From positions 1 through 64,000 of the forward strand of contig JAHJTX010000063.1 in NCBI GenBank assembly GCA_018829545.1: DNA of 64,000 nt, given 5' to 3'. The stretch is from Bacteroidota bacterium (GTDB taxonomy: Bacteria > Bacteroidota > Ignavibacteria > Ignavibacteriales > Melioribacteraceae). Of this stretch, positions 1-300 are shown in pieces. Position 1 is the first letter of the stretch. Each line of letters opens with the position of its first letter. The notes beneath the pieces were generated by a model, which made no database searches, was not told the DNA's origin, and was given only the letters and a program-made list of their open reading frames with translations. Position numbers and translations under genes: made by a program.

Positions 1-30
1 AAAAAAGGCTGAATAAATCTTCAGCCTTTT
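1..30 (-). terminator. Terminator-like hairpin, outer copy
   Basis: A 7-bp stem (GGCTGAA/TTCAGCC) with a 6-nt loop is flanked by A6 on the left and T4 on the right, so on the minus strand it ends in a T run. It is identical to the hairpin at 105-134 and lies downstream of the tRNA fragment at 36-92. It was copied together with the 3' part of the tRNA gene. Confidence 0.6.
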
Positions 31-35
31 CTTAG

Positions 36-92
36 TAGCGGAGGCAGGACTTGAACCTACATTCCGACTCTGTCGGGATATGGGCCCACATT
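36..92 (-). pseudogene. Truncated tRNA-fMet-like copy, 3' half
   Basis: On the minus strand the T arm, acceptor 3' strand and discriminator A match the intact tRNA at 140-212. The anticodon-stem side is replaced by an imperfect palindrome at 61-79 (ATTCCGAC, 3-nt loop, GTCGGGAT), although an ATGGGCCC stretch still resembles the CAT anticodon region. No D arm or 5' acceptor strand follows within a usable distance, so it cannot fold as a tRNA. Confidence 0.6.
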
Positions 93-104
93 CCTCTTTA
101 AAAC

Positions 105-134
105 AAAAAAGGCTGAATAAATCTTCAGCCTTTT
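105..134 (-). terminator. Terminator downstream of tRNA-fMet
   Basis: Same hairpin as at 1-30: stem 111-117 with 124-130, loop 118-123, and T6 following on the minus strand (A6 at 105-110). It lies 5 nt past the tRNA 3' end and should terminate its transcript. The T4 on the plus side could give weak termination in the other direction as well. Confidence 0.75.
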
Positions 135-139
135 CTTAG

Positions 140-212
140 TAGCGGAGGCAGGACTTGAACCTACAACCTTCGGGTTATGAGCCCGACGAGCTACCAATTG
201 CTCCACTCCGCG
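140..212 (-). tRNA. tRNA-fMet (initiator), anticodon CAT
   Basis: The minus strand gives a complete 73-nt cloverleaf with a GAGC/GCTC D stem, anticodon loop CTCATAA, and T stem GTAGG/CCTGC with T loop TTCAAGT. Initiator identity is shown by three consecutive G-C pairs in the anticodon stem (GGG/CCC) and a non-Watson-Crick first acceptor pair. That pair reads C1/U72 rather than the usual C1/A72. The 3' CCA is not encoded (ACT follows A73), so a CCA-adding enzyme is needed. The remnants on both sides share its sequence. Confidence 0.95.
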
Positions 213-231
213 ATATAAAACTTTTAATGAT

Positions 232-300
232 ATTCTCGAAGAGCTACTCCCGATGAATCGGGACTCCACTTTTATCCGGCTTCCGACGGACCGCTATATA
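232..300 (-). pseudogene. Disrupted tRNA-fMet-like copy, 5' half
   Basis: The plus-strand string GAGCTAC-(16 nt)-CTCCACT-(20 nt)-CCGCTATAT lines up with GAGCTAC-CAATTG-CTCCACT-CCGCGATAT of the intact tRNA. The D loop is replaced by a perfect 7-bp palindrome at 248-263 (TCCCGAT-GA-ATCGGGA). A second, weaker G/C-rich stretch at 274-289 splits the acceptor strand. It looks like the 5' half of a broken copy. The match is short, so chance similarity is not fully excluded. Confidence 0.45.

Follow-up and report, generated by a model that had tools for sequence, protein, structure and literature searches.

Of the systems described so far, the free-standing GIY-YIG homing endonucleases of T-even phages come closest to the arrangement reported here. 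SegB, a nuclease located among the phage tRNA genes, reportedly cuts inside these genes and causes tandem amplification (PMC13096335, PMC2988022). Earlier work cited in PMC13096335 found free-standing GIY-YIG enzymes to be inefficient in cutting their own donor allele; in the main text of that paper the words hairpin and palindrome are absent. A 2006 survey of the GIY-YIG superfamily uses the term tRNA three times, and none of these uses concerns gene neighbours (PMC1564403). Short palindromes which are dispersed in genomes, sometimes inside genes, are known from the REP/RAYT elements (PMC3733652, PMC6006769). Small GIY-YIG proteins of the UPF0213 type are the only solved chains matching the fMet-type nuclease described below at E <= 0.1 (1ywl, 7e-7, and 1zg2, 2e-5, in the PDB); both were deposited as hypothetical proteins and that listing gives no tRNA link for them. 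In fungal mitochondrial genes, the insertion of a GIY-YIG element creates a second 3' end of the target, so that nuclease insertion brings a replacement gene end as would be the case here; unlike here the target is a protein gene, and the element is not known to have a hairpin plug. Rickettsia palindromic elements are palindromic units of about 100-150 bp in coding genes and RNAs, and do not match the present inserts, which measure 15-22 bp or about 42-61 bp, those of the window being 16 bp long.

The window, by which we mean the whole stretch of 64,000 nucleotides analysed here, begins with the first base of a contig (C14) of a Melioribacteraceae assembly comprising 408 contigs and 4.1 Mb. 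At this end an intact initiator tRNA gene has a 5'-type and a 3'-type broken copy on either side, each bearing a palindrome, as the preliminary description of this DNA had noted (Table 1). We take these broken copies, with a probability of roughly 70%, to be scars of small site-specific elements of a homing type, which would carry a GIY-YIG nuclease, address the tRNA-fMet gene and spare the tRNA; such elements would presumably cut and move.

Table 1. Coordinates of the features at the tRNA-fMet locus of the window
Feature	Position	Strand	Basis
Intact initiator tRNA-fMet, anticodon CAT	139-212	minus	ARAGORN; Rfam RF00005 64 bits at 140-212
Terminator-like hairpin of intact tRNA (GGCTGA...TCAGCC then T run, minus strand)	105-134	minus	sequence
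Second terminator-like copy, at contig end	1-30	minus	sequence
3'-type broken tRNA-fMet copy, downstream of intact tRNA	about 36-97	minus	13.3 bits as tRNA (Rfam)
Imperfect hairpin plug TCCCGACAGAGTCGGA, V site (CCCATA^...ATGTAGG)	63-78	minus	sequence; V-site plugs in relatives
5'-type broken tRNA-fMet copy, upstream of intact tRNA	about 241-298	minus	sequence; same arrangement in relatives
Perfect hairpin plug TCCCGATTCATCGGGA, D-loop site (GGAG^...GTAGC)	248-263	minus	same site in 30 stretches elsewhere
Second hairpin TCCGTCGGAAGCCGGA then TAAA, acceptor stem of 5' copy	275-290	minus	one mismatch
Direct repeat copy A	1-61		identical to 105-165
Direct repeat copy B	105-165		identical to 1-61
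recN-type gene, divergent from tRNA	436-2145	plus	Pfam PF02463 (RecF/RecN/SMC N terminal); synteny anchor

Read in the sense of the tRNA, the order is 5' copy (hairpins 290-275 and 263-248), intact tRNA, terminator 134-105, 3' copy (hairpin 78-63), second terminator, and contig end. The 5'-type copy reads AGTGGAG-TCCCGATTCATCGGGA-GTAGCTC, the palindrome taking the place of the D-loop CAATTG. It contains a further hairpin in the acceptor stem on which the preliminary description was silent, and a similar insert is present in another locus (L117). In the 3'-type copy the anticodon region is followed by the variable-region hairpin plug, the T arm, and the 3' strand of the acceptor. Of the two palindromes originally proposed, the one in the 5'-type copy proved to be perfect at the positions given for it; the other occupies 63-78 and not 61-79, is imperfect with one arm one base short, and stands for the 3' anticodon strand and the variable region. 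A check with the Rfam tRNA covariance model, which had been suggested for all copies, recovered the intact gene with 64 bits and the 3'-type copy with only 13.3 bits.

The two copies of the 61-nt direct repeat are identical in every base, as had been stated. The repeat contains the 3' part of the tRNA and its terminator. An integrative element with a tyrosine integrase would be expected to have the integrase gene between two 3' copies of the tRNA; here the gap between the repeat copies is only 43 bp, and contig C14 stops at copy A. As position 1 of the window is the first base of the contig, the repeat itself is cut by the contig end and the array of broken copies may extend further; within this limit the 61-nt identity fits a recent duplication. 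Relatives of this region occur elsewhere in the assembly: contig C394 contains a copy of the terminator-like sequence 105-134 and a 95% copy of window positions 63-135. In this contig (G000:C394:1-1100, L017/L101) a second broken fMet copy is located between an attC-like inverted repeat, which follows the end of a MazF-like gene, and an ORF pair resembling a nucleotidyltransferase/HEPN toxin-antitoxin (gene names assigned by eye).

Two copies of the pattern TCCCGA-N(1-14)-TCGGGA are present in the window with 0.03 expected, and 58 in the genome as compared to 2 of the reversed pattern. The recurrence on which the preliminary description had made its insertion idea depend was found, and extends to the same sites in broken tRNA-fMet copies of other genomes. 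Its suggestion of one palindromic unit preferring this tRNA did not hold, as the copies in the genome sit in differing repeats or isolated, and the plugs differ between loci. Among 14 other genome copies with flanks read, seven belong to an element with a length of about 125 bp, four to another repeat, and three are found elsewhere; nine further copies appear isolated, one of them inside the RNase P RNA. These 14 and nine flanks rule out one mobile palindrome family in this genome. Rather than forming one repeat family, the palindromes are hairpins which plug displaced copies of tRNAs at fixed positions.

Several places in this genome merit a description. The element of about 125 bp has inverted ends (about TAACTCACCTTACGCA), is present in at least seven copies (L001, L006, L008-L012), and is MITE-like. 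The repeat holding four of the 14 copies is that of TCCCGATTATTTTGTCGGGA; it recurs in several contigs, and 100 bp from it lies the only Y1 transposase of the genome at E 1e-5 (G000:C99:4284-4747). The RNase P RNA (L096, G000:C251:10100-11100, positions 257-682, 241.7 bits) contains TCCCGATTTATCGGGA. A broken tRNA-Pro-like copy (G000:C78:5600-5647, L088, 28.6 bits) has TCCCGCAAAAAAACTGCGGGA in the D arm, and a broken tRNA-Arg-like copy with a hairpin-like insert (G000:C332:1-110, L086) is found about 75-80 bp upstream of an intact tRNA-Arg(TCG).

A search of genomes of 84,980 species for the exact D-loop replacement GTGGAG[TCCCGA...TCGGGA]GTAGC yielded 30 stretches, two of them from one MAG. 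This recurrence at the same place in broken tRNA-fMet copies of other genomes means that the position of the palindrome is not due to chance. By record title the 30 stretches belong exclusively to Bacteroidota, Ignavibacteria, Chlorobiota, Neomarinimicrobiota, Fibrobacter or the 'FCB group', which we take to be one superphylum. ARAGORN found a tRNA-Met in 25 of the 30, and seven of the 30 have a GIY-YIG gene near the tRNA-Met. In stretches showing both, the plugged copy is, as judged by eye, nearly always just upstream of the intact gene with the same 5' flank, one exception with a downstream plugged copy being L110. A decoy role of the broken copies for anticodon nucleases was considered and dropped, as many upstream copies end before the anticodon.

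Comparison of the locus across related genomes, another suggestion of the preliminary description, showed that the recN/tRNA-fMet arrangement recurs in the family. One tRNA-fMet locus could be taken from 88 of 97 genomes, two of which lacked an intact core and were dropped. In 38 of the resulting 86 genomes, this one included and all of its family, recN adjoins tRNA-fMet, so that the window shows the usual place of this tRNA gene in the family. A GIY-YIG gene is carried at ten of these 38 loci; in one genome (G040) recN is followed by a D-loop-plugged copy, the intact tRNA-fMet, the start of a GIY-YIG gene, and then the contig end. Among fMet loci with a nuclease gene, ten of 22 have a downstream plugged copy, as compared to eight of 54 among those with none (Fisher p 0.007; 76 loci, ten of the 86 with less than 400 bp downstream and no nuclease being left out). 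Upstream D-loop-plugged copies occur at 12 of the 86 loci, with a nuclease gene within the sequence read in three and none in nine. The patterns used miss some copies, which makes these counts lower bounds, and one downstream match (G094) was discarded as spurious. Nuclease-free scars like those in the window are therefore common. Two genomes of the same genus, one without (G058) and one with the nuclease (G087), have both flanks conserved over 1,362 and 924 aligned bp; presence and absence with both flanks rests on this one pair. Altered T-stems, a predicted sign of replacement of the 3' end, were seen in nine of 21 nuclease-bearing and three of 18 other loci, which is not significant (p 0.096).

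In the present assembly no fMet-type GIY-YIG gene was found, only two distant GIY-YIG genes, and the GIY-YIG domain PF01541 is absent from the window itself. As the contig ends here, the link to GIY-YIG genes was invisible to the preliminary description. One of the distant genes (G000:C321:3655-4093, L084/L085) lies about 130 bp after a tRNA-Ser(GGA).

In relatives, a small ORF with a GIY-YIG domain as its single domain follows the tRNA at several fMet loci, and PF01541 (Pfam) was recognised in all seven of the relatives' proteins tried (two plus five). With one relative's protein as query (E <= 1e-6), GIY-YIG genes were detected in at least 84 of 97 genomes including this one. Ninety such loci were read, the 30 best matches and 60 further ones among the matches listed, the latter taken in rank order with one per cluster and not at random. 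At 68 of the 90 loci (24 of the best 30, 44 of the further 60) a tRNA recognised by ARAGORN is no more than 300 bp away from the GIY-YIG gene. The two are on the same strand in all 68, the nuclease following the tRNA in 55 and preceding it in 13; the median distance is about 58 bp for the best matches and 27 bp for the further ones. At Y1-transposase loci serving as a control a tRNA was found within 300 bp in none of 30, with one fixed position per locus and 28 of the 30 control stretches holding no tRNA whatsoever. The tRNAs adjoining nucleases are fMet, Asn, four Ser types, Cys, Asp, Leu, Arg, Gly, Val, and Pro. Tandem arrangements of between two and five nuclease genes, or pieces of such genes, are present at about 25 of the 90 loci, and in a phylum-level sample 13 of 18 newly read best-match loci were again beside a tRNA. 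The remaining 22 of the 90 loci have no tRNA within 300 bp, and some of these are in protein genes.

For the most part the nuclease clades correspond to the identity of the adjoining tRNA. Beyond the nuclease gene, a piece of the cognate tRNA is present at 59 of 68 loci, as compared to 13 of 340 tests with a non-cognate tRNA. A tree of 98 nuclease domains, the resolution of which is limited by its 78 columns, required 26 changes of the tRNA label with a mean of 65.8 for shuffled labels, and none of 200 shuffles was as low. All 16 fMet rows fall into one starred clade (100/98) together with five rows without an ARAGORN tRNA. Leu and Cys form one starred clade each and Pro one unstarred clade, Ser and Asn are split into several groups, and the Arg and Gly labels are unclustered.

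Another finding was that within the fMet group the site of the plug follows the nuclease. On the tree the plug site changed twice, the lowest number in 2,000 shuffles being three. The D-loop plug is found with L180 and L181, the two nucleases which do not belong to the starred clade of 19 rows, the variable-region plug with four nucleases of one starred clade (L170_0, L178, L179, L182), and the T-loop plug with the remaining thirteen scored. Nineteen of 29 fMet-type nuclease rows entered this test. Those left out were L174_0 (contig end), L166_0 (no readable copy), L166_1 (T site, protein identical to L166_0), L185_0 (T site, short), L183_0, L184_0 and L191_0 (broken), L180_0 (D site, partial), and L181_1 and L167_0 (partial); the sites of L164, L167_1, L170_1, L172, L175, L177, L178, and L179 were assigned by eye with the tree known. 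For other tRNAs the site is likewise exact where two flanking pieces were readable. The plug lies between positions 21 and 22 or 22 and 23 in tRNA-Arg (5/5 loci), between 35 and 36 in Ser(GCT) (3/5), between 70 and 71 in Ser(TGA) (2/2), and between 14 and 15 or 15 and 16 in Leu (2/4), in each case with no bases lost. A few bases are lost in Asn (57 to 61, 3/3 shown) and Asp (50/51 to 59/60, 5/5 loci). Additional inserts occur at L215 and L231. The inserts, of the sizes given above, are mostly hairpins with differing arms. A TCC-type hairpin was found within 150 bp of the GIY-YIG gene at 43 of 90 loci as compared to one of 110 control windows, these being 300-bp windows in the same stretches and narrower than the test span.

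The scheme which we propose builds on what is directly seen in relatives, namely adjacency, cognate copies, clade-specific plug sites in the fMet group, and presence and absence within a genus in the one pair. Each element would carry a single GIY-YIG nuclease gene, about 80-90 codons in length. The tRNA would be the target of the nuclease, which may cut tRNA genes free of the element at the plug site, and repair from the element-bearing chromosome would then copy in the rest of the tRNA, the terminator, and the nuclease gene. The cell would be left with one intact tRNA and a displaced remnant bearing the hairpin plug, which presumably confers protection by destroying the target in the displaced copy. 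Repeated rounds would lead to tandem arrays, and upon loss of the nuclease gene plugged broken copies would remain. The window would then preserve what is left of two insertions, one represented by the D-loop plug upstream and the other by the variable-region plug downstream, the nuclease gene being either lost or beyond the contig end. The model does not account for the source of the hairpin or for the escape of the intact tRNA from cutting. Against it speak the failure to find an fMet-type nuclease gene in this assembly, the nine of 12 upstream D-loop-plugged copies with no nuclease gene in the sequence read, the 22 of 90 GIY-YIG loci with no tRNA close by, the unclustered Arg and Gly and the split Ser and Asn labels, and the T-stem comparison which fell short of significance.

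Such elements would resemble SegB and the other free-standing T-even GIY-YIG homing endonucleases in the nuclease among tRNA genes, the tandem tRNA-nuclease segments, and the intronless homing (PMC13096335, PMC2988022). As in a free-standing GIY-YIG homing endonuclease, the gene adjoins its presumed target outside of an intron or intein. Unlike SegB, they are found on bacterial chromosomes, comprise a catalytic domain of about 80-90 codons with clades mostly tied to one tRNA, and are accompanied by incomplete copies of the cognate tRNA, in which a hairpin occupies a site specific to the clade. In titles and abstracts of the open-licence literature, among the matches listed, GIY-YIG genes tied to bacterial tRNA genes and hairpin-bearing tRNA copies are not described. 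Given the phage precedent and the failure to find the plugged form among these matches, the chromosomal plugged form may be regarded as a variant of known GIY-YIG homing; phage GIY-YIG genes among tRNA genes are known, and the chromosomal, tRNA-specific, hairpin-plugged form is apparently new.

Four other explanations have to be weighed against GIY-YIG elements. Hairpins of mostly 15-22 bp with TCC...GGA ends might be free elements which insert themselves into loops of structural RNA genes, where duplicates tolerate them, with the GIY-YIG genes as mere neighbours sharing the taste for tRNA loci. Such hairpins do occur away from nucleases, in the RNase P RNA, as isolated copies in this genome, and in nuclease-free broken fMet copies. 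The excess of TCC-type hairpins at GIY-YIG loci over the control windows, which differ in width, and the dependence of the plug site on the nuclease clade make this explanation unlikely. The same dependence bears on ordinary tandem duplication of the tRNA with decay, in which template switching in replication would perfect weak inverted repeats into palindromes. The sites are indeed tRNA hairpin loops or adjoin them, and the copies are in tandem with a common 5' flank; however, plugs with TCCCGAT arms are found by eye where the local anticodon stem TTGGG/CCCAA gives no template (L106, L121), and positions and arm types recur in distant lineages, which renders decay quite improbable. The idea of the preliminary description that the palindromes themselves drove the duplication is likewise less satisfactory than nuclease-driven insertion beside the tRNA.

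An origin of the palindromes as REP elements, with a Y1 (RAYT) transposase responsible for their movement, is suggested by the location of TCCCGATTATTTTGTCGGGA close to the genome's one such gene. This palindrome is part of a longer repeat with flanks of its own, however, most Y1 loci read in relatives have other palindromes or none, and of 30 Y1 loci only four have a TCC-type hairpin nearby and none a tRNA within 300 bp. From PF01797 in 29 genomes and the hairpins around 30 loci, a RAYT/REP origin was rejected for the tRNA plugs, which unlike REP elements have no consistent link to a Y1 transposase; the exception is one repeat of this genome which is not the tRNA plug, and as a general explanation it is very improbable. 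An assembly artefact could be suspected for the 61-nt repeat and the 3' copy at the contig end, and is hardly credible in view of the 95% relative of the inter-repeat part in another contig and of similar anatomy in other genomes, some of it on long contigs (G072 C1, 4.2 Mb; G067 C1, 1.9 Mb).

Whether GIY-YIG elements of this kind form a large, apparently undescribed class in Bacteroidota and allies is a wider question, to which we give even odds. These would be minimal homing elements on chromosomal tRNA genes, each clade with one tRNA and one position, sparing the host by an intact tRNA carried or regenerated, and leaving the plug at their own cutting site in the displaced copy. If so, the hairpin plug would add a new step to homing, whether it serves as an immunity mark built into the element or arises as a product of repair, and the broken, hairpin-bearing copies which often flank tRNA genes in this large bacterial group would be accounted for. 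It would also provide dozens of natural nuclease-target pairs with a cutting site predictable from sequence alone, and homing nucleases directed at tRNA genes would be known from chromosomes and not just from phages.

GIY-YIG genes away from tRNA genes show features of their own. An Rfam search of 16 such loci without a near tRNA yielded one tmRNA (L250) and nothing at the cut-off in the other 15; at L250 the GIY-YIG match (1121-1719) begins 13 bp after the tmRNA gene (173.6 bits). A sister clade of the Cys-type nucleases (L195, L199, L202, L203, L214, L244, L245) has no tRNA nearby. Inverted repeats, CCCGTGAGATA...TATCTCACGGG or CACCCCGTCAAATA..., enclose several of its copies, which seem to be inside protein genes, with names assigned by eye: L202 and L203 in a recombinase-like gene, and L199 and L214 in a gene like that of a four-helix protein, at the same insertion point in both.
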